Shown here: positions 44,969-56,800 of the stretch, piece after piece
How positions within the stretch are numbered: position 1 is the first letter of the stretch
How the letters are laid out: each line of letters opens with the position of its first letter
From: Planctomycetota bacterium
Lineage (GTDB): Bacteria > Planctomycetota > MHYJ01 > JACQXL01 > JACQZI01
Assembly: GCA_016207825.1 (NCBI GenBank)
Contig: JACQZI010000023.1
Location: 124,001-188,000 of the forward strand
Length of the DNA: 64,000 nt
Reading direction: 5' to 3'
Notes under the pieces: generated by a model
What the model was told of the DNA's origin: nothing
The model's database searches: none
The model's input: only the letters and a program-made list of their open reading frames with translations
Program-made: the position numbers and the translations under genes

Positions 44969-46849
44969 TTAAACCTGCGTTGCCTTAATCCTGAGCTTGA
45001 AAATCCCGTCTTCCAGCATGAAATCCACGCATGAATCTCCGCCCGGAATAAAAGACATCAAACCCAAGGCCGGGTCAATCATCCCCTGCACCAAATTATT
45101 GGTGACAGTGTTCTGAGCGCTGATAGACCCCGTGCTGTATTCAGCATTGGATATCAGCATCCCGGCTTGAATCAGGCGGCCCATCAAGGCAGACCTGAAA
45201 GATTGGATGAACTCTTCCCGGCAAATCCGGTAAGGGGCACCGGCAATCAATTGGTCGCCCTGACGCAGTTTACCCGCTACCGTAGGCTCACCGGTCATCC
45301 AGAAACAGGCAATGGCCGCGGCGCCGATTCCGTGGATACGGTCACCGGTGATGCGCAAGGCTTTCTTGCGCCACGATTCGGCAACCCGTTCCTTGGAGTC
45401 ATTCACCGCATCCACAAACCTTTTCGCCTTAACCCCGCCGATTTCTTCAAAGACGCGGGTAACCCTTGTTACCCAGTTCTGGTAAGCGTCCTGGATATTC
45501 TTGGCAAAGGTCTTGACTACCGAAGCCTTGACCCGACCCCTTTTAGTCCGATAGGTATCGGACATAAAGGAAGGCCACTGCTCGGCGGCGGGAGTAGAAA
45601 GCTTTTCCTGGTAGCTGGCTTCATCGGGAATTGCCCTTTGAAGGCGGTCTATCAAGAGTTCGGCATTCTCACCCAGATTTTTCGCCCACTTTTCCGCGAT
45701 ATCTCCGGCAGGCGCGTACGAAGCAGGTATTTCCAGCTTTACATCAAACAGTATGTTTGGCATAAAACTATCCTCCGTTTTCCTCGTTAGTTCTGCTCGC
45801 CGATACATCTCCTTTCCGTGCATGCTAACGGAAAGACACCTCGATGCGTCTGATTGACGAACAGAAGAACTGAGGAACGGAAAAACGTAAGAACTATTTA
45901 ATGTCCTTTCGTCCTTCGGTTCTTTAGTTCGCTTGCGCGGTCCTTCGGTTCTTTGGTCGAGGAAATCGTATATTTCCGAGATGGGAACAATTCCCGCCAT
46001 GGTGGTAATCAATTGGTCTCCATATAATCTTACCCAAACGGCTATTCCAATTAACTCATATTGGTAGGCATTCCCGTCATTAGACGGGACGGCGCTTCGC
46101 TTCGCATATACCGGTCCCCCGGAGTTACCGGGTAAAACCGGAGCTGTTATTTCCCAAGAAAAGCCACCGATTACACTGATAATACCGGATGAAGGTCTTG
46201 GAGATAAACCTAATGAACATCCAACAACATAAACCGGAGCGAATAAGTAAGGAACATAATCCTTCGGAGCCAGATTTGCAGTTTTAACCGCAAAGTCGCA
46301 AAGAACGCTAAGAAGGGCTAAATCCTTAACCGTATCTGTAATAACAACCGTCGCATCTATCTCGGTATCCTTTGCGTCTTTGCGGTAAGAAAAGAACGTT
46401 ACGCTTACTTTAGCATAATTTCCTACTACATGTCCTGCTGTCAGAATCAGTGTATATCCGTGTTCATCGGTGGTTGCAATGACTACCCCGCTTCCGCATC
46501 CGGTCAGTGTTTCAATCATAACCGTTGGACTTAGCATCTCGTCATACTCACGCTGGTAAGGATTATTAGCCTTGTCCATAGGCCGAATGATGATAACGCC
46601 GGAAGGAAGTTCGGCAGGCTTAGTTGACCATGCCGTCAATCCGATTAAGAGAATGCCCGCAATCAGGATAATCAATAATCTGATAACCTTTCCCTTGCCC
46701 TGAACCTGACCCCGACCAAAGGTATCGGGGGAATGGTTCATGGGTTTCTTGCTCATATCTTCAAGTTTCTTTTCCACCTTACGCTTGATGATTGTCAGCA
46801 GGACTTCCACGGCCACCTTTAATATTCCTTTAAATATTTTCTTAAACAT
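44969..46849 (-). CDS. Membrane-anchored trypsin-like protease joined in frame to a protein of unknown function
   Basis: The frame spans 626 codons from the ATG at 46849, which has a strong GGAGGG ribosome site and overlaps the upstream stop by 8 bp. Part one: an amphipathic start, one membrane helix (LLIILIAGILLIGLTAW, about residues 55-71) and a trypsin fold with TLILTAGHVVG (His), VKDLALLSV (Asp) and LPGNSGGPVYAK (Ser). Part two, from M at 45763, is a 264-residue helical protein I do not recognise, and it has its own GGAGG site 7 bp before that ATG. The linker between is made of repeat words, so two ancestral genes may have fused, or a stop was lost. Further repeat words sit inside the protease domain (46079-46110, 46281-46316, 46369-46390). 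Outward-facing protease is inferred. Confidence 0.75.
   Translation of the reverse strand: MFKKIFKGILKVAVEVLLTIIKRKVEKKLEDMSKKPMNHSPDTFGRGQVQGKGKVIRLLIILIAGILLIGLTAWSTKPAELPSGVIIIRPMDKANNPYQREYDEMLSPTVMIETLTGCGSGVVIATTDEHGYTLILTAGHVVGNYAKVSVTFFSYRKDAKDTEIDATVVITDTVKDLALLSVLCDFAVKTANLAPKDYVPYLFAPVYVVGCSLGLSPRPSSGIISVIGGFSWEITAPVLPGNSGGPVYAKRSAVPSNDGNAYQYELIGIAVWVRLYGDQLITTMAGIVPISEIYDFLDQRTEGPRKRTKEPKDERTLNSSYVFPFLSSSVRQSDASRCLSVSMHGKEMYRRAELTRKTEDSFMPNILFDVKLEIPASYAPAGDIAEKWAKNLGENAELLIDRLQRAIPDEASYQEKLSTPAAEQWPSFMSDTYRTKRGRVKASVVKTFAKNIQDAYQNWVTRVTRVFEEIGGVKAKRFVDAVNDSKERVAESWRKKALRITGDRIHGIGAAAIACFWMTGEPTVAGKLRQGDQLIAGAPYRICREEFIQSFRSALMGRLIQAGMLISNAEYSTGSISAQNTVTNNLVQGMIDPALGLMSFIPGGDSCVDFMLEDGIFKLRIKATQV
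45761..45776 (-). promoter_or_regulatory. Internal ribosome site and ATG inside the protease frame
   Basis: GGAGGA (45776-45771) stands 7 bases before ATGCCA (45763-45761) in the same frame as the protease. This is as good as any gene start in the window and marks a likely independent start for the C-terminal 264-residue protein. Confidence 0.55.
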
Positions 46850-47282
46850 CTTCGCACCCTCCTTCCTGCCAGCTTTCGATATAATCAACCCAATCTTCAT
46901 AGAATTCCTGTTTGAGTTCAGATTCTTCCTGCTCTTCCTGAAGGCTTACCCCGAAGGCGATATCCTGTCCCGCCAGCTTGCCCCGCTCCACTTCGCTCCG
47001 CGGGACGATAGGGAGTCCCTGACCATAGGTCAGGGCGCCCTTTTCCAATAACCGCCGGTCGGCATATGAAAGGAGCGATTCAAACCCCATCCTTAAAGCA
47101 GGCAGTTCCAACCGCTTTCTTTCCGGGTAATACATGAGGTAGCAATACCGGCAATAACCCAAGCCCCTTGCCGCCCACGAAATAAGCGCCTTGCCTTTAA
47201 GCACCGGCTTGTTAACGGCTTTAGGCAGGGGTTTGCCGCATTCTTTGCATCGTATCGCTCCGCAATTTCTTAAATCTTTCAT
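46842..47282 (-). CDS. Zinc-ribbon protein of unknown function upstream of the protease
   Basis: A 146-residue protein with a four-cysteine zinc ribbon, CGAIRCKECG (residues 7-16) and CRYCYL (about 44-49), then a helical acidic C-terminal half. Residues about 82-103 (EKGALTYGQGLPIVPRSEVER) are encoded by a GC-rich palindromic insertion at 46980-47045. The gene has a good AAAGGAGA ribosome site and overlaps the protease start by 8 bp (ATGTTTAA), so the two are translationally coupled. It diverges from the sigma-factor operon across a 358-bp spacer. Confidence 0.7.
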   Translation of the reverse strand: MKDLRNCGAIRCKECGKPLPKAVNKPVLKGKALISWAARGLGYCRYCYLMYYPERKRLELPALRMGFESLLSYADRRLLEKGALTYGQGLPIVPRSEVERGKLAGQDIAFGVSLQEEQEESELKQEFYEDWVDYIESWQEGGCEDV

Positions 47283-47640
47283 ATTTCATTCTCCTTTCTA
47301 ATTGGTCATTGTTCATTGGGGCTTGGTCATTCCCAAGCTCCCCTCTCCATAACCTAACCTGGAAAAACCCCAAAAGTTATATGGAAATCTTTTTTTCTAT
47401 GAAAATAGTTGCAATTTTCCCTTAAGCTACTTTGCTTGGATGCCAAATAAGTTTACATTTTTGTAAAGTTTCTTTACGCCAGAACAGCCGGAAAGCGCCC
47501 GAAAAAACACGATTCTACCGTCGGAAAGCTATAAAATAAAGATGGGCAGATTTTTAATCATCGGTGGATTGTTTTAAGACGCCTTGGCATGCTATTTGCT
47601 TATGTATCCTTATGTATGGGGAGAAGAAGGACTCGGCGCC
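47283..47640. other. Divergent regulatory spacer of the protease / sigma locus
   Basis: No gene is seen. The DNA near the zinc-ribbon gene holds repeat words (GGTCATTGTTCATTGG, CTTGGTCATTCCCAAG). The middle is AT-rich with TTTACATTTTTGTAAAG, an imperfect inverted repeat near 47452 that could be an operator. Promoters for both directions must lie here but none is unambiguous. Confidence 0.5.
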
Positions 47641-48246
47641 ATGGAGTGGAATACGCTTTCGGACGAGGACCTGATTCGGTTATACCGGCAGGGCGTAACC
47701 GAAGCATTGGATATTCTGTTCCATCGCTATCTTGACCCCTTGCGCGGATATCTTTTGAAATACAGCTGGTTTAAGGACGATTCCTATCTGGATGACTTAA
47801 TCCAGCAAATCCTGATGATTGCCTTTACGCGCATAAAGGAAAAGGCGTTCGAACCCAAAGGGGATGGTTCATTCAGGCATTATTTGTATAGGATAGGCAC
47901 CATTGAGTATAAAAAGCAGGATTGCCTGCGCGCCTCGGAGTTACCCCCGCTCTCGAGGCGTTTCCCAAACGTCTCCACGGGTTTTGCCGATGAACGGGTC
48001 CCTTCAAGGCCCGTGGAGACACCTAATCATCACGCGCTCCATAAAAAACTAAGCAAGGCCTTTAAGGCGCTTGCGACCGAAGAGATAAAACTCCTGATTA
48101 TGGCGAATCTGGGCATCCCGTATGAAAAGATATTGGCCCATCCTCTATTTAGCAAATTTACTCTTGCATATTTAAAGCTGAAAATATATAATATCCGGCA
48201 AAAGGTGATTAAAATCATCGAGGAGGAAAAGGACGAGCCCCGTTAG
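47641..48246 (+). CDS. ECF-like RNA polymerase sigma factor
   Basis: A 201-residue sigma-70-family protein. Region 2 is clear: SDEDLIRLYRQGVTEALDILFHRYLDPLRGYLLKY, then YLDDLIQQILMIAFTRI and GSFRHYLYRIGTIEYKK. Region 4 (about 140-195: LSKAFKALATEEIKLLIMANLGIPYEKILAHP) is weaker. The linker (about residues 103-128) is encoded by a palindromic repeat at 47953-48020. The start at 47641 is preferred over one at 47584 because the extra residues are not sigma-like. The last codons and stop lie in a GCCCCGTTAG hairpin. It is followed by a zf-HC2-type gene and a kinase gene, as in ECF groups linked to Ser/Thr kinases. Confidence 0.8.
   Translation: MEWNTLSDEDLIRLYRQGVTEALDILFHRYLDPLRGYLLKYSWFKDDSYLDDLIQQILMIAFTRIKEKAFEPKGDGSFRHYLYRIGTIEYKKQDCLRASELPPLSRRFPNVSTGFADERVPSRPVETPNHHALHKKLSKAFKALATEEIKLLIMANLGIPYEKILAHPLFSKFTLAYLKLKIYNIRQKVIKIIEEEKDEPR
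47953..48020 (+). repeat. Palindromic repeat element in frame inside the sigma-factor gene
   Basis: GTCTCCACGGG (47971-47981) is exactly complementary to CCCGTGGAGAC (48010-48020). A second hairpin, AGGCGTTT-CCC-AAACGTCT, lies just before. The element encodes SRRFPNVSTGFADERVPSRP in the linker between sigma regions 2 and 4. It resembles the in-gene palindromic elements known in Rickettsia. Confidence 0.75.
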
Positions 48247-48262
48247 AGATAACCAACGGGGC
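48236..48262 (+). repeat. GCCCCGTTAG hairpin covering the sigma-factor stop codon
   Basis: GCCCCGTT and AACGGGGC form an 8-bp stem around GAGATAACC and contain the final Pro-Arg codons and TAG of the sigma gene. The same outer stem occurs in the riboswitch spacer at 9587. A short A-run, not a T-run, follows, so it is not a plus-strand terminator. Confidence 0.65.
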
Positions 48263-48299
48263 ATCAAAAAAGTTCCTAAAAAACGAAAGGACTTAGATT

Positions 48300-48857
48300 A
48301 TGGCTACACCTGATAAAAAACGCGACAAAAACTCTGATGGGGTGAAGAAGACATGTAAGAAATACGCGCGGGCAATCACGGATTACGTCCTGAACCAGCA
48401 AACGGATATCCCGAAAGAAGAGCTATTCCAACATCTCAAGGAATGCGCTAAATGCCATAAGGAATTCTCCGATTGGAAAGACTTCAACGATTTCGTCCGG
48501 GTCAAGGAATATCATTCCCGTCCCGAGGTAAAGGAGAAATGGGATAAATTTATAACAGAACTGGTTCACAGTGGAGGAGCTCCGGCGAAACCGTCCCAAT
48601 GCTCCACGGCGGTCATACCGGGTGCGACGGTCGTAGACGTCAAATGGGAAATCGGCAATGCCGCGGGAGTTATATATAAGCATTTATCCACGGCGGGAAT
48701 AACCAAACTGAATGACATTCCGGGCAAGACCAGCATCCCGATGGAAACCGCCCTGCAGGCGATTGGCTGGCTGGCGCGGGAGGAAAAGGTCTGCAAGGAG
48801 CGCGTAAAAACGACGAGTTATGTCTATGTCCCCGAACATAAACAGGCGCAGGGGTGA
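48300..48857 (+). CDS. zf-HC2-type putative anti-sigma protein with winged-helix C-terminus
   Basis: A 185-residue soluble protein. The N-terminal half has HLKECAKCHKEF (about residues 41-52), the H-x3-C-x2-C core of zinc-binding anti-sigma domains, set in a helical bundle. The C-terminal part (about 112-165: WEIGNAAGVIYKHLSTAGITKL ... ALQAIGWLAREEKV) matches the winged helix-turn-helix domain PF10771 (DUF2582). No membrane segment is present, so any sigma control would be cytoplasmic. It lies between the sigma factor and the kinase. The mixture of anti-sigma and DNA-binding domains is unusual. Anti-sigma function is inferred. Confidence 0.75.
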   Translation: MATPDKKRDKNSDGVKKTCKKYARAITDYVLNQQTDIPKEELFQHLKECAKCHKEFSDWKDFNDFVRVKEYHSRPEVKEKWDKFITELVHSGGAPAKPSQCSTAVIPGATVVDVKWEIGNAAGVIYKHLSTAGITKLNDIPGKTSIPMETALQAIGWLAREEKVCKERVKTTSYVYVPEHKQAQG

Positions 48858-48937
48858 GAAGAGAAAACAAGAATAAACAAAAGGCGCTTGTCACCGAACG
48901 AAAATCAAAATAAAGTAATCGAAGGGAAAAGGTAAAC

Positions 48938-50485
48938 ATGTTTATTACAATAGGTACTGTTATATACGATAGTAATAAAGCTGCGTATAACGTTCTTGAA
49001 TTCATTGGAAAAGGGGCTTTTGGTGATGTTTACAAAATTGAAAAGAATGATGACAAGTCAATATGGGCTTTGAAAACACTACCAACTACATTTCAAGATA
49101 AAAATAACCTAAAAAGCTTAATTCATGAAGGGAATCAAGCCATTAAAATATCCCATCAAAATTTTATAAAGTATATATTTTTCCACGATGGTTCCCTTTT
49201 CCCACAATTACCCCCTTATATAATTATGGAATTCGCAGACCAAGGAACCCTAGAAAATGTAATTATAGAACAAAAAAGGAAGAATGAATTTATTCCAAAT
49301 GGTGAGCTGCAAAAATATTTTAACCAGCTAATAAACGGTATGGATGCGGTTAATTTAATTCTCATTCATAGAGATATCAAGCCTAACAATATTCTTATTA
49401 AGAAGGATTTATTGAAAATATCTGATTTCGGATTATCAAAAATCATTGAAGAAGAAACAAGAACTTCTACCTTTAAGGGTATTGGTCATGTTAAATACAT
49501 GTCTCCAGAAGGATGGAAAAACCAAACAAATACCATTCAGATGGATATTTATTCAATGGGTGTCGTATTTTTTGAATTAGCAACATTATGTCATCCTTTG
49601 GAAGTTAAACCGAGTGATGGTTTTCAAGAATGGCGTGATGCGCACCTTTATCAGAACCCTAAAAGACCTAATACAATTAACACAAATTTATCACCTGCGT
49701 TTTCTCAAGTGATATTTAAAATGATAGAAAAAAGCGTAAGTAATCGTTTTAAAAGTTGGACTGAAATTAAAGCGGAGTTAGCAAAAGAAAACCTACCCGT
49801 CACTTCCAATACACCTTTAGTAGATGCAATTTTGAATAAGCGATTAGAAAAGGATTCAATGATAAAAGAAGAACAACTTAAAAAGCAGAAACGACAGAAA
49901 GAAATAGAAGACTTTTATAAACTCGTAGAATATCAAATTAAAAAGGATATTTATGAGCCACTTGATAGTTTTATTAAAGAGCTTAATGAGAGATATACGG
50001 GAAGCAATAAGGTTATTCTTCATAATAGGCAGCCAGGTCGTGATTTTAATTGTTTAATTGGGTTGCCTTCAGGGAACCCCTTGGCCTTGGAAATACGCCC
50101 TTTGATTGATGAAGAATTTAACAGAGAAAAAGAAATAGATGATTACGGTCGGACAATACGCGTTAGACGATTAGAAAGGCCTTTATGGAAAAATAAAAAG
50201 ATAATGGCTTGGGGATATTTGAAAAGCAAAGATGGCAAAGGGTTCAATGTAATTTTAGTGGAAAAAGACAATGATGCTTATGGAGAATGGGTTATTTTAA
50301 CAAATACGAATAATGCTCTAGTTAAACCTGAAGCAAGAAGAAATGTGGAGCCATTCCCTTTCGAATTCCGTGAAATGGAAAAAGAAATTAAATTCGCTAG
50401 TGGTAATGTTACACATATATATGTTACTAAAGCAGAACAACTAAAGATTAACCATTTCGTTAATTTTATTGAAGAATATATTTAG
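48938..50485 (+). CDS. Cytoplasmic Ser/Thr protein kinase with unknown C-terminal domain
   Basis: A 515-residue Hanks-type kinase. The kinase domain (about 15-285) has IGKGAFGDVYKI, the ALKTL lysine, LIHRDIKPNNILI, ISDFGLSK and an activation loop GIGHVKYMSPEGW. A coiled-coil-like basic segment follows (about 305-330), then an alpha/beta domain of about 170 residues that I do not recognise (LEIRPLIDEEFNREKEID, KIMAWGYLKSKDGKGFNVI). No membrane helix. Its DNA is visibly more A+T-rich than the sigma/anti-sigma genes 80 bp upstream, suggesting separate acquisition. It may phosphorylate the sigma or anti-sigma protein (inference). Confidence 0.85.
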   Translation: MFITIGTVIYDSNKAAYNVLEFIGKGAFGDVYKIEKNDDKSIWALKTLPTTFQDKNNLKSLIHEGNQAIKISHQNFIKYIFFHDGSLFPQLPPYIIMEFADQGTLENVIIEQKRKNEFIPNGELQKYFNQLINGMDAVNLILIHRDIKPNNILIKKDLLKISDFGLSKIIEEETRTSTFKGIGHVKYMSPEGWKNQTNTIQMDIYSMGVVFFELATLCHPLEVKPSDGFQEWRDAHLYQNPKRPNTINTNLSPAFSQVIFKMIEKSVSNRFKSWTEIKAELAKENLPVTSNTPLVDAILNKRLEKDSMIKEEQLKKQKRQKEIEDFYKLVEYQIKKDIYEPLDSFIKELNERYTGSNKVILHNRQPGRDFNCLIGLPSGNPLALEIRPLIDEEFNREKEIDDYGRTIRVRRLERPLWKNKKIMAWGYLKSKDGKGFNVILVEKDNDAYGEWVILTNTNNALVKPEARRNVEPFPFEFREMEKEIKFASGNVTHIYVTKAEQLKINHFVNFIEEYI

Positions 50486-50725
50486 CTATCACGGACTAAA
50501 GCGTGACGCACACCGTTCCAGGAAACTCTTTATTTTTCGAAGCGTAGCGGAGTCCCGACCGACAGCCAGCAGGTCGTCCCGCGTGATCAAAACGTGACAC
50601 ACACCGCGACTGGAATACCCCGATTCCCCTGCGATTCAAATCCTAATTCCCTTGAATCCCTTTTTCTTTAATGGGGTATACCGGCTTGCACCATGGAGCA
50701 TAGTAGTTATTAAGATGGGGTCGGG

Positions 50726-50955
50726 TAGCTTTTAGAATGGGGTCTGGTAGCTCTTACCTATACGTATTATAGCTTTTAGGATGGAGTCAGGTAGCCTTTA
50801 CCTATATGTATTATAGCTTTTAGGGGTGAGTAATATAGCCTTTACCCGTATGTATTATAGCCTTTAGGATGGGGTCAAGTAGCTTTTACCTATATGTATT
50901 ATAGCTTTTAGAGTGGGGTCAGGTAGCTTTTATAATGGAGTCTAGTAGCCTTTAG
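50726..50955 (+). repeat. Tandem array of 44-bp units, each two related 22-bp halves
   Basis: Four full units begin at 50726, 50770, 50814 and 50858, and a fifth diverged one at 50902. Each 22-bp half begins TAGCtTTTA; the first half continues with gATGGGGTCaGG, the second with CCTATATGTATTA. Copies differ at several positions, so the array is old. There is no coding frame. Confidence 0.85.
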
Positions 50956-51026
50956 GGGGGTGTATACCCGCCCCCCCCTCCGCCTAAAACCTCATTTAAT
51001 TGATTTAGAAATGAATATACCTGCCT

Positions 51027-51062
51027 CGCCGCCTGCCTGTCCGGTAGGCAGGGCAGGCGGGC
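51027..51062. repeat. GC-rich inverted repeat (CTCGCC-GCCTGCCTG type)
   Basis: CGCCGCCTGCCTG pairs with CAGGGCAGGCGGGCG around TCCGGTAGG. On the plus strand GTTTTAGCC follows, too few T for a confident terminator. Such CCTGCC/GGCAGG palindromes are dispersed repeats in many genomes. Confidence 0.6.
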
Positions 51063-51120
51063 GAGTTTTAGCCACCCTTGCGTGACGGGGATGCGTTTTA
51101 AGTAAAACGATTAATCCTTA

Positions 51121-52242
51121 TCACTCCTCGCGCTTTTTCCAGTCTTCCCATTTCTCTGAATTACCGGTATATTCTATGACGGTTATTTCCCTTGCCCGTT
51201 TCTTGATATCTTTATCTTTATCTTCTATTAATTTATCCAATACCTCCGCAACATGTTTTTTTATGGATTTATCTTTTAGTTTAACGTAGCGGTCATCAAG
51301 CTTTTCTACAAACAACTTGCCTGCTTCTATGGCGGTTAACCGGACTTGTTTATCTTCACTCTGGTCGCCGGCAATCGTTAACAGCCGTTTTATTATATCG
51401 CCGTCTGCATAATTCCCAGCAAGCGTTAGTAATGCCTCAACAAGCCTCTTACGTGCTTTTACATCTTTATCATACGGCGATACGCTTAAACTATTTAACA
51501 CCGTGCCTTTTGAAATAACATAAAGCGAAAGCATTTCCAGGGCATTATTCCTTTCATCTTCATCAGCACTAACGATTAAATCCTTGTATTTATTAAAGGT
51601 TTCGACGTGTTCTGGGTTTTCTTTTATTACAACGGTTTTATTTGTAAACAACGCCCCAAACCATGCGCCTTCTATTGGAATTGTTTTTACATCTGCTGGT
51701 TTCTCTATTGTCGCATAACTTCTATGTTGTTCCTTCTGCTTACCGGTACAAGCCGCTTCTATCTTTACCGAACCGGTTTTTAACGGCACTAATGTCCAGG
51801 TATAAGTTATTGTTTGATGAGGCTCTACATAAACAAAAGAATAGTCATAACTATAACCCCACCCTTCCCGTGTTCTGCTCCACGTCCCACGAGCATCATA
51901 TTGTTTGCTTTCATTTATTGAATAACCATCACCAAAAAGCGCCGGTTCATAAAATGGCTTATGAGTAGTATAGGCCTCGGTAAACGCCCTCTTTTTATCG
52001 GTCAGGCTGGTCAGTTTTAATTCCGCTTTAATCTCTTCGCCAAGCAGATATTCGTCTTTATCCGTAACAAGCTCAAGCCGGAATATTCCGTCGTTGTTTA
52101 TATCAGTCTTCTTAAAAAGACGATTATGTTCCATTTCCGGCTTGGACTCCTTTTCTTCGGCATAAGATAAAAGGAAGGAAGAAAACGTTATTATAGAGAA
52201 ACAAACAAGGCTTACCGTTGAAATCAGCTTCTTGTATTTCAT
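51121..52242 (-). CDS. Secreted protein with beta-rich N-terminus and HEAT-like helical C-terminus
   Basis: A 373-residue exported protein: signal peptide MKYKKLISTVSLVCFSIITF and following residues to about 28, then a beta-sandwich-like region (about 45-185, LELVTDKDEYLLGEEIKAELKL) similar to intracellular proteinase-inhibitor or Ig-like folds, then helical repeats (about 225-350: VRLTAIEAGKLFVEKLDD) suggestive of HEAT units. An AAAGGAGAG ribosome site precedes the ATG. It belongs to a same-strand cluster of secreted genes. Function is unknown. Confidence 0.8.
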   Translation of the reverse strand: MKYKKLISTVSLVCFSIITFSSFLLSYAEEKESKPEMEHNRLFKKTDINNDGIFRLELVTDKDEYLLGEEIKAELKLTSLTDKKRAFTEAYTTHKPFYEPALFGDGYSINESKQYDARGTWSRTREGWGYSYDYSFVYVEPHQTITYTWTLVPLKTGSVKIEAACTGKQKEQHRSYATIEKPADVKTIPIEGAWFGALFTNKTVVIKENPEHVETFNKYKDLIVSADEDERNNALEMLSLYVISKGTVLNSLSVSPYDKDVKARKRLVEALLTLAGNYADGDIIKRLLTIAGDQSEDKQVRLTAIEAGKLFVEKLDDRYVKLKDKSIKKHVAEVLDKLIEDKDKDIKKRAREITVIEYTGNSEKWEDWKKREE

Positions 52243-52261
52243 AAAACTCTCCTTTCTTGGT

Positions 52262-52988
52262 TTATTTTTCAGGGAAAGTAATCACTTTATTTGTTACCTC
52301 AACCCCGTCGCCCCCTGAAAACTCAATCGTTTTAGATGCAGGAGCAGTATTACCATCCACGGTTTTTGAAAATTCTACACCAATATTTACTGCAAAGACA
52401 TTTTTCGCAGGGACTGGTTGCCCATTTCTGGTGAAAGTTGTTTTGTTAAACGCATCCTCTATCTTTTGCGCCCGTAGAACGTAACGCATATCCTTGGTGA
52501 ATTCTTCTATAAGTTTTCGAATATCTTCTTCATAAGTTTGAATTGTTTCTGTTTGGGAATTAAAGACTCGAATATTTTTCATCCCAATGTTTAAGGCTAA
52601 ATTCCTTAGAAACTCAGCATATTCATTGTCGGTAGCATTTTGGACATTTAGTGTTTTTGTTCCAATTCCAAACTGGAAAAATATAAAAGAATCATAACCG
52701 ATTGAAGAAACACTGCCAACCCCATCTTTTTTCATTAAGGGTTCCGGTGAGTAGCCTAAACTTCCTGCAACTATAAGCTCGGTATCATCATCTTTTGAAC
52801 CGCTATGGCAATGCCTGATATCAACGACTACACCATGAAGCTTTAAATAGGGAATCCTATATGGCGTAGGTTGTGCCGGGTTTGCCTTTTGCACTCCTCC
52901 CTTATTTCCAGCCTCAAACCCAGCAAATGCGATATCGTTCAGCAATGATACCGCCTAATAAAACTAGTAACAATGGTTTGTTAATCAT
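52262..52988 (-). pseudogene. Secreted protein gene with frameshift in its signal peptide
   Basis: The open frame 52262-52945 gives 227 residues starting from a TTG with no ribosome site. Upstream, a perfect AGAGGAGATGG site precedes ATG at 52988, which encodes MINKPLLLVLLGGI, a clear signal peptide that soon runs into a stop in its own frame. A single-base shift near 52945-52950 would join signal and body. Either the gene is broken or the read has an error. The body has VVVDIRHCHSGSKDDD and a helical middle (ATDNEYAEFLRNLALNIG) but no domain I can name. Confidence 0.65.
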
Positions 52989-52999
52989 AACCATCTCCT

Positions 53000-53161
53000 C
53001 TATTTTTTAATTCTTATAGACAATGTTTGAATATCAGCTGTCGCTCCTGGAATTAGGTTAGAATCCTGTGCTTCCACATCAAAAGTAAATGTTCCAGCAG
53101 TTGTCGGTATTCCGCTTATTCTACCAGTCATAGAATAACCGATGAAAAATATTCCTCGTTC
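53000..53161 (-). pseudogene. C-terminal relic of an Ig-like (He_PIG-type) domain protein
   Basis: Between an in-frame stop (53164-53162) and TAG (53002-53000) lie 53 codons reading MTGRISGIPTTAGTFTFDVE and AQDSNLIPGATADIQTLSI, the typical end of a putative Ig (He_PIG) domain (G-x-I-S-G-x-P-x-x-A-G-T-F). No start codon with a ribosome site is present. It is a leftover of a larger surface protein. Confidence 0.7.
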
Positions 53162-53169
53162 CTACAATT

Positions 53170-53775
53170 TTATTTCTGCTTGATTTCTTGTGCGATACCA
53201 GAAAGACATTCTTTAAGTTTCGCCGAAGTGTTTGTATTATTTATCTTGTCTTCTAGAAAGACTACAGACAATTTTTTACCTATTGTCTCAACTAATAAAT
53301 ACTTTAAGGCTTCTTTTAAGAAATGTATCCGATGTCGGGTATCTTCACTATAGGTTAGTTTTTCTAATTCTGTATAAATTCGTTCGCTAACGGGTTCTAA
53401 TGATGGCGTCCCTATTTGGGCAAGAGCGTTAAGAGCAAACCGACCTTCTAATATTGTCCTTGGCCTTTCACGCTCAATTCCAAGATAGCAAAAATCAAAG
53501 TTTTTAACAAGTAAAGATAAAGACTCGTTGGCCCGATAAGTAGCCATTAATTTACAAAAGCTCACCTTGACTTCATCGGTTTCTTTATCCCAATTGGCCT
53601 CAAAATACTTCACCAGCTCTGTTATATCAGTTTTATATTTAATCACTTGACCATCCATAAAGTTAATTTTACCTTCTTTATTCATATCATTAAACCGCTG
53701 CTTGTTATCATCACCACTTAAATACAGGACACATCCTATTACCAGTAAAATCATTGTTACTTTTAATTTTATCAT
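53170..53775 (-). CDS. Secreted helical-repeat protein of unknown function
   Basis: A 201-residue protein with a signal peptide (MIKLKVTMILLVIGCVLYLSG; the Cys after VIG could be a lipoprotein site) and an all-helical body with HEAT-like turns (RFALNALAQIGTPSLEPV). A modest ribosome site AAAGGCGAG precedes the ATG. It lies 39 bp downstream of the large fibronectin-type protein on the same strand, so they may be one operon. Function is unknown. Confidence 0.75.
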   Translation of the reverse strand: MIKLKVTMILLVIGCVLYLSGDDNKQRFNDMNKEGKINFMDGQVIKYKTDITELVKYFEANWDKETDEVKVSFCKLMATYRANESLSLLVKNFDFCYLGIERERPRTILEGRFALNALAQIGTPSLEPVSERIYTELEKLTYSEDTRHRIHFLKEALKYLLVETIGKKLSVVFLEDKINNTNTSAKLKECLSGIAQEIKQK

Positions 53776-53814
53776 ATTCTCGCCTTTCTAATAATTTATT
53801 TAATTAAGATTAAA

Positions 53815-56800
53815 TTATTTTAAATCCCAGGTTAAATTAGTATAAGATCCGAATTCTACTTTATTGTCTTTTCTGATAGAGTTTTCCTGAATCCAATCAT
53901 CATTTGCTGGGCCTATTTTCTTTCCGCTTCGCACACAATACCACTGATAGACCAGTGAACATCGTATCTCTGCTCCATTATCATTATAAACAGCGTATTC
54001 TTTCATATTTGAGCGAGCTCTAATAATAGTCCCAATGGGTTCGTTGAGGAATCCAATGCCGGGGGCGTCATAGTCATATATTTCACCCTGCGATTTATCG
54101 GATAGTGGGTTATTATCCTGATAGACTCTGGGACTAGTATCGTTACCAGGGGGTATTACAATAGAAAAATTTCGAATAAGCCCTGGCCAAGGAATGCTTC
54201 CATTATTGGTGTCCTTAAAATATCTAAATGCTCCATCTCTTTGAAGAACCACAGGGAAGTTAAAATCTGAAGGCTTGACCGTTCCTTTCAGTTCAATCCC
54301 CAGTCCATATCTATCCCATCCCTTTCTCCATACGCCTAAATCCTCAAAATAATCATTCGCAATTTTATCTCTAGCAGCGTTTTCGGTTACCGGCGAAAGT
54401 TTACCAGATGTTTTGCCGGTTATATCCGAAACCCATAAGACGGTAAAGTTTATTTTATCATTAATCCCTCCTGTGTCTGCCGCTTCCAATGAAATCGTCG
54501 CATCTCTCATTGTCGTGCTTTCAGAGAACCCCTCAACCCAAAAATCTTTTGGTAATGCCGCATTTGAAAATTTATTATTACGACCATTAAATTTAATTTC
54601 TGTTCCACCTACAGGAGCTGTGAATATTTTAACTTTATCGTTATTTCTTGTAAGAATCAGATTAACATTACCGTTCCATGTGGTTGGGGTTACCCGCTTG
54701 ATCTCAATTTTTTTCCGAGGTGCATTATTGTTATCAAAGTTCCTAACCACAATACCTCCGATAGATATTTCATCTGTATCTAAAATACCGTCAATATCTA
54801 AATCTAATTCTAATACTGTAAAATCCTCTTCAAGAACACAAGTAATATCTTCTGTATAGCCACGCACCCGCACTTTCGCACTAATCGCTGTTTTATTTAC
54901 GTCAATGCTGGGGCGAACCCCCTTAAGCTGCAGGGTTAAGCCACCCCGAATAAATGTATAAGGTGGTTGAGTTGTTAATGAGGCATCTTCTTGAGGAATA
55001 ATTTTTGGTGGTTCGGTTAAGCCCATCATTACCGATGGCACCGGCCCCTGAATATAAATATAACAGGTCTGTTCTGTATCTACTCCTATCAGGTCATCAT
55101 TAGGGTCAAATGTATTGGCGAACTTTATTTGCATATCAATTACGGTAAATCGTTCTTCAGTCCAACCATACCCAACGGTCGTTAATACCACATCATCATT
55201 CTGGTCGCTGGTTGCCGTACCTTTAATTATGACAGTTATTGGCTCGCTCTTATTTTCTCCTTTCGGGATGGTTAAGCTGATAATATTTGGTGTTACAGTT
55301 GCGCGGCCACCAGACTTACCGGAAACCGGTATTCTCAAAGTAATAGATTCCGTAATCTGTTCTTTAGCCGTTTCTCCTGTAGCCATTTCTAAAGTAACGG
55401 ATATTTCTCTTGGATTATCCACTTCAACATACTCAAACTGTTGGATTACTACCCTGGTTTTCGGTTTTTTTGCATGCATTCGAGAAGTGGATTGATAAGG
55501 TGAATCGTTAAAAGCGGCAGGCATTGTTCCATCACTTATCACCTGAATAACGCCATTTTCTAATCCAATCGGATAAAAAGTGCCTTTTGAAACACGGCTG
55601 AAAGATACCGGTTCGCCAATTGTGGAATCAATATAAGGGCTTCTTATCCAAAGTTTTTCCGTTAGTTCAACTTGGCCAGTTACAAGATTTATCGTCCCGG
55701 AAGAAATCTGCGCCGGGTTATTAGCAAAGTTCATAGTTCCATAATTAATATTGTTTAACGTAAATGCAGTCCCTGTATAGGCCGTTCTGGTAATTGTAAG
55801 CGCAAACACCCCTGGATTGCCGGTTGGTTTTAATTCTATGGAGAGGTCACCTGTTAGGCTCGTAGTAATTACCTGCTCACCGGACTGTTGAAGACGAATT
55901 TCATTCTGGCAAGGGTATCCATAGAGATATAAATTAATTGCGGCAGTTGGGTTAATTAAAAGTGTTAAATAATCTATTAACAAATTAAGAGAATAGCCAA
56001 AAGATAAACGTGCTTCAACGGTCATTTCGTTATCCGTTAATTTCTCTAACTTCTTGGAGATAGAATTAAGCGGGTCAAGCGCTGATTTATAATCATTTAT
56101 AATAAGATATGATTTTGCTTCATTTAAACGGTCGGAGAATGATTCATAAAGCCCCGGCTTGATAATACCAGCTTTAACGTTATTAAGTGTAGTAATAGTT
56201 TCGTCTATGGTCGGAATATGGGCAAAGGTTACCGCCGCGGACATATTGGATGGCGCGCTATTACCGGCCACATTATAAGCTCTGATCCGGTAATAATAAA
56301 CCGCACCCGGAGAAAGATTCGTATGAGAATACGTGGTTGCGGGGACTTCCGGATTGGATTCAACAACCGCAATCTGGACAAACGGGTCGTGGCAACTGGT
56401 TTTGCTTTCAATTATAAAGCCTTGCTCATTATCCGAATTATCCTGCCATGTAAGATTAATCTGTGATGAAGATACTGCTGTAGCTACTAAATTACTCGGC
56501 GCGGCAGGCGGCTGGATTTGCGGGGCGAAATCCACTACCGCAGGCACTGCCTGCATATTATGCACCGTCCCGGTAAGGAAATAACCACGATATCCGCCAC
56601 TGCTATTTGTAACAGTGTAAGCAAATGTAGTCGTGCCGGCCTGTAAAGCCTTCCACGTAATAGTAAACGCCAGGCGATTCGGGTCACTGGGAGGAACATC
56701 ATCCTCGGAAAACCACATCCACGGGTCTACGATTATCCAACCGGTTCCCCTCCTTGATATCCCTGTAGAAAATGCCCCGGATGTAACATGGTCCGCTTCC

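Follow-up and report, generated by a model that had tools for sequence, protein, structure and literature searches.

An apparently undescribed ECF sigma factor module and its predicted link to an expanded orphan gene family in one order of Planctomycetota

The locus analyzed here lies in a 64,000-nucleotide stretch of DNA (hereafter "the window") from the 2.9 Mb genome of a Planctomycetota bacterium, the relatives of which are Planctomycetota/Brocadiia bins, several of them from groundwater. When the window was re-read, all five genes that an earlier note had described at this locus were found, each in its place. The genes for a zinc-ribbon protein (ZNR) and a trypsin-like protease (PROT) are divergent from those for an ECF sigma factor (SIG), a predicted zinc anti-sigma carrying a winged helix (ZFWH), and a Ser/Thr kinase. 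The earlier note had overlooked the last part of the PROT frame, an orphan unit for which we will use the term D270, together with the genome-wide set to which this unit belongs. The features of the locus are collected in Table 1.

Table 1. Genes and other features of the locus, with window positions, strand, and the basis of each assignment.
Feature	Position	Strand	Basis
PROT, membrane-anchored trypsin-like protease, frame continuing into D270	44969..46849	-	Trypsin_2, catalytic motifs, hydrophobic segment KVIRLLIILIAGILLIGLTAW
D270, orphan unit of ~264 aa having a separate ATG and ribosome-binding site	44969..45763	-	~40 genome copies; no family match
Structured 72-nt leader of three helices, preceding D270	45793..45864	-	Covariation; genome search
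ZNR, zinc-ribbon protein	46842..47282	-	Cysteine conservation among 7 homologues
Predicted ECF promoter of the ZNR-PROT-D270 operon	47343..47386	-	Motif and matrix searches
Sigma-54-type promoter before SIG, TTGGCATGCTATTTGCT	47584..47600	+	Perfect match
SIG, ECF sigma factor, 201 aa	47642..48246	+	Sigma70_r2; family profile against solved ECF factors; start aligned with homologues
ZFWH, soluble predicted zinc anti-sigma (C-x25-H-x3-C-x2-C) with an attached DUF2582 winged helix	48300..48857	+	Pfam; homologue alignment
Ser/Thr kinase, neighbour	48938..50485	+	G+C; missing from other copies

SIG is composed of sigma2 and sigma4 regions without sigma3, the make-up of an ECF factor. Its Pfam score is weak, with Sigma70_r2 at 24.1 bits in the genome search and 22.1 bits in hmmscan (cut-off 24); the same family is matched in six of nine relatives, and Pfam reports sigma4 in no member. 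The family identity is nevertheless firm because a profile of the nine relatives can be aligned over its full length with solved ECF factors (E 9.5e-17). This profile covers both regions, so that sigma region 4, which the earlier note had listed as a point that might prove spurious, is genuine. The SIG subfamily is set off from other ECFs by a large gap (1e-54 vs 1e-25). Its nine counted members, which are also the seeds of the search, are distributed over this genome (four), G003 (one), G005 (one), and G007 (three).

The start of SIG is most likely the ATG at 47642 and not the listed TTG at 47584, since the latter falls within the sigma-54-type promoter. This site is the sole sigma-54 match in the window, even when one mismatch is allowed. 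A site of the same kind precedes the SIG paralogue on contig C27, and RpoN is encoded in the genome. Stretches of this genome totalling 604 kb contain 11 perfect sigma-54 promoter matches (e.g., L032, L098, L102, and L109), a high frequency that suggests a sizeable RpoN set.

In the mapped modules, the ZFWH gene adjoins SIG. The zf-HC2 score of ZFWH is under the Pfam cut-off (18.8 bits), and DUF2582 scores 47.5 bits. The zf-HC2 core is genuine, as the residues Cys19, His45, Cys49, and Cys52 are invariant in nine homologues and have a ligand spacing identical to that of RsrA. Inspection of the sequence by eye revealed no hydrophobic segment or membrane anchor, in agreement with the earlier description of a soluble anti-sigma that carries a winged helix. 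In RsrA, the release of sigma upon oxidation requires the N-terminal zinc-ligand cysteine (PMC4960319). ZFWH keeps this cysteine at the RsrA spacing, which makes a thiol or zinc signal the likely trigger of the switch by analogy. Elsewhere in the genome, a stretch of 30 codons with 67% identity to the ZFWH C-terminus (G000:C7:200338-200427) is a possible gene remnant.

ZNR has no Pfam match, and a ribbon of the CxxC...CRxCY type is common to its seven homologues. Where ZNR is found in the mapped modules, it always adjoins PROT. The listed PROT reading frame begins at 46900, and the most likely start is the ATG at 46849, which overlaps the ZNR stop. Trypsin_2 covers residues 136-267 of PROT with 57 bits, the motifs TAGH, KDLAL, and GNSGGP are intact, and a hydrophobic segment is present. 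Pfam finds Trypsin_2 only and no PDZ domain; the trypsin domain is followed by D270, and residues ~380-643 of the frame belong to a separate orphan family and not to the protease. In four PROT genes, the frame stays open into D270, while other PROT genes stop before it. Since D270 of the window has its own start codon and ribosome-binding site, the PROT-D270 fusion may be an open frame only.

Searches with ZFWH, ZNR, and PROT, followed by mapping of the matched loci, found ZNR-PROT(-D270) divergent from SIG-ZFWH in the window, in three further copies of the four-gene module in the same genome (C27, C5, and C10), and in G003 and G007. In the C5 and C10 modules, the divergent halves are separated by four to five genes. 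In an additional G007 copy (L090), ZNR is missing and TPR repeats stand where the winged helix would be. The module therefore recurs across related genera of one Planctomycetota order. Of the proposed five-gene locus, four genes are conserved together; ZNR, PROT, SIG, and ZFWH form a genuine module, and the kinase stands outside it. The result is a conserved signalling locus that is apparently undescribed. A second ZNR and PROT/D270 operon (G000:C23:118585-120984, L098) lies ~3 kb left of the window and has no adjoining SIG or ZFWH. In G003, other ECF sigma genes are divergent beside single D270 genes at two places (L173, G003:C27:201205-202862; and G003:C3:379571-381319).

D270 has ~40 copies in this genome, most of them free-standing genes; the genome stretches that were read contain 38 domain hits. 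The copies are located at unrelated places and are 21-80% identical to the window copy. Assignment to a known family was rejected, as neither Pfam nor PDB sequences gave a match and the AlphaFold2 model (mean pLDDT 84, pTM 0.64) found no fold with E < 0.001 among PDB or viral (BFVD) structures. A phage protein was likewise rejected; no viral contig matched in a collection scan made with a closer subset of the sequences, the full alignment being too divergent, nor did any BFVD fold. D270 was found in six of 392 Planctomycetota genomes, all six in one order of nine genomes. Several copies are located at or near contig ends (C3, C8, C12, C24, C26, C40, and C41), as expected if repeats break the assembly.

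The leader element was found at the window locus and at L030, L096, and L097, with weaker occurrences at L103, L105, and L159. Its covariance model was built from four sequences. At E 0.1, the genome has only four matches, all before D270, and a weaker match that was not a seed (L103, E 2e-5) also precedes a D270 gene. In seven aligned matches, four of them model seeds in an alignment that leans toward the model, two-sided changes occur in 15 of 20 pairs, and 92.5% of the cells pair, vs ~40% when slid. The element has no match in Rfam. Small peptides that resemble one another are readable in front of some D270 genes; in the window copy, however, the DNA motif is retained in a different reading frame, so that a nucleic-acid structure, as RNA or DNA, is the better reading of the sequence. 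An integron attC site has also been rejected because the ends, inspected by eye, are not consistent.

A shared promoter motif, one of the checks proposed earlier, has been found. The sequence TGTNACWT-N18-TANTTATGGAGGG precedes ZNR in four modules and also lies upstream of several D270 genes. When up to three mismatches are allowed, the whole genome contains nine matches, all nine upstream of ZNR or D270 on the right strand, a pattern built partly from those same sites. As a control for this circularity, a matrix was trained on the four ZNR promoters alone. It detected nine other sites of at least 18 bits, eight of which are upstream of D270 (expected share 2.2%), and these eight held-out sites fall on five genes only, some in tandem. 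A genome of the same genus has five matches to the motif; one D270 gene is preceded by four of them in tandem, and the fifth, located at the end of a contig, resembles the ZNR promoter of C10. In other genomes, the pattern matches at background level only; in the matrix search, G003 and G005 have related sites in front of ZNR. A recognizable promoter site is limited to roughly one in four D270 genes. The motif was not found before the adjacent secreted proteins, contrary to the suggestion that the switch governs them.

The promoter subtypes largely match the four modules. Eight of the 12 non-ZNR sites have an identity of 0.80-0.98 to the ZNR promoter of one module and of at most 0.66 to the others; the subtype of the other four is less clear. 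At each of L108, L095, L100, and L159, a single D270 gene has in front of it two to four promoter-like units, arranged in tandem and differing in subtype; such genes may therefore sum several inputs.

The spacers of the motif are conserved as strongly as the boxes and are also subtype-specific, an indication of copied DNA or of a second protein binding there, and not of sigma contact alone. This observation, together with the winged helix carried by ZFWH, would suit a motif made of binding sites for that winged helix (or for ZNR), through which D270 would be controlled directly while SIG serves other targets. On the other hand, the two-block layout, the mostly constant spacing, and the ECF41-like -35 fit a promoter, and the winged helix is replaced in some modules, as at L090. 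We consider direct control of this kind unlikely. The number and dispersal of the D270 copies, their divergence, their occurrence at contig ends, and their restriction to one order could also be explained if D270, its promoter, and its leader were a selfish dispersed element, with the modules as hosts or older copies and not as controllers. However, no transposase and no end repeats were seen, the DNA similarity among the D270 copies is largely limited to genes and promoters, and D270 has no viral match, which leaves a selfish element quite improbable.

A sigma-54-driven ECF sigma factor that is restrained by a redox-type zinc anti-sigma and activates ZNR-PROT-D270 and scattered D270 genes is the reading that we prefer, with a probability of roughly 0.6 on the sequence evidence. 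It builds on the observed gene arrangement, domains, motif and motif location, promoter subtypes, and sigma-54 site. The sigma-54 promoter would drive production of SIG, and ZFWH, encoded in the same operon, would keep SIG inactive, acting as a cytoplasmic, RsrA-like, redox-sensing CHCC zinc anti-sigma with a winged helix. SIG would be freed by a signal in the cytoplasm, with thiol oxidation or loss of zinc as the most likely candidates, and would then read the motif and transcribe the divergent ZNR-PROT-D270 operon and the scattered single D270 genes. Each of the four paralogous modules has its own promoter subtype, and the subtypes may reflect sigma specificity. The regulatory link between the SIG module and D270 is a strong prediction and not a demonstration. 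Proteolysis, which had been suggested as a control step, does not fit a ZFWH without a membrane anchor; PROT is located behind the predicted ECF promoter and therefore looks like an output of the switch rather than a regulator.

Several known systems resemble parts of this locus. As in SigR-RsrA of Streptomyces, a soluble anti-sigma is encoded with its sigma, and the RsrA residues Cys11-His37-Cys41-Cys44 have the spacing of the four ZFWH ligands. The differences are the extra winged helix of ZFWH, the promoter, and the orphan family as the target. ECF41 factors have the -35 box TGTCACA in common with this locus, and their promoter has a similar layout of two blocks (PMC3426412), but the -10 here is not CGTC and SIG (~201 aa) ends after sigma4, without a fused C-terminal regulatory domain. 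HrpL is a precedent for an ECF factor made from a sigma-54 promoter, with RpoN driving the ECF gene, and its control has been described as transcriptional alone (PMC8103513), whereas the predicted anti-sigma ZFWH is additionally present here. In the DegS/HtrA-type stress pathway (RpoE-RseA), a trypsin-like protease gene also stands beside an ECF sigma gene; here there is no PDZ and no membrane anti-sigma, and PROT is a predicted target.

The kinase-regulated ECF43 and ECF59 have a Ser/Thr kinase gene nearby, and in kinase-activated ECFs uncharged residues replace the DAED motif of sigma2 (PMC8103513). Activation of SIG through phosphorylation by the adjacent kinase (Pkinase, 146 bits) would accord with these known ECF-kinase pairs and with a kinase gene that follows ZFWH on its strand at a distance of 80 bases, but it is very improbable, given that SIG has LDD at the DAED position, which is acidic in all nine members, that the G+C of the kinase gene is 32% vs 47-52% for the other four genes, and that the locus maps place no kinase gene in other module copies, the contigs of the closest relatives ending directly behind ZFWH. 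The kinase, which the earlier note had made a component of the switch, is thus probably not part of the module. A low-G+C stretch (31-41%, window 49001-56000, in a surrounding region of 45-47%) holds the kinase and the secreted genes, and tandem 22/44-bp repeats (TAGCTTTTAGGATGGGGTCAGG...) are located behind the kinase (window 50703-50956).

The locus is an order-specific variant of the ECF/zinc-anti-sigma theme, and its targets are probably an expanded orphan family. A broader and more tentative proposal is an order-wide network of paralogous ECF/zinc-anti-sigma modules, every one having its own promoter subtype, which might jointly drive the ~40-copy, new-fold family by way of mixed promoters in tandem and structured RNA leaders; such a gene family, expanded and under combinatorial control, would be of a new kind. 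An order-specific family of ~40 genes per genome that is tied to a concrete regulator and promoter has expression conditions that can be predicted and tested. If the promoter subtypes reflect sigma specificity, the locus would provide a natural example of paralogous ECF factors that share targets via tandem promoters, and also an example of a zinc anti-sigma that may bind DNA.
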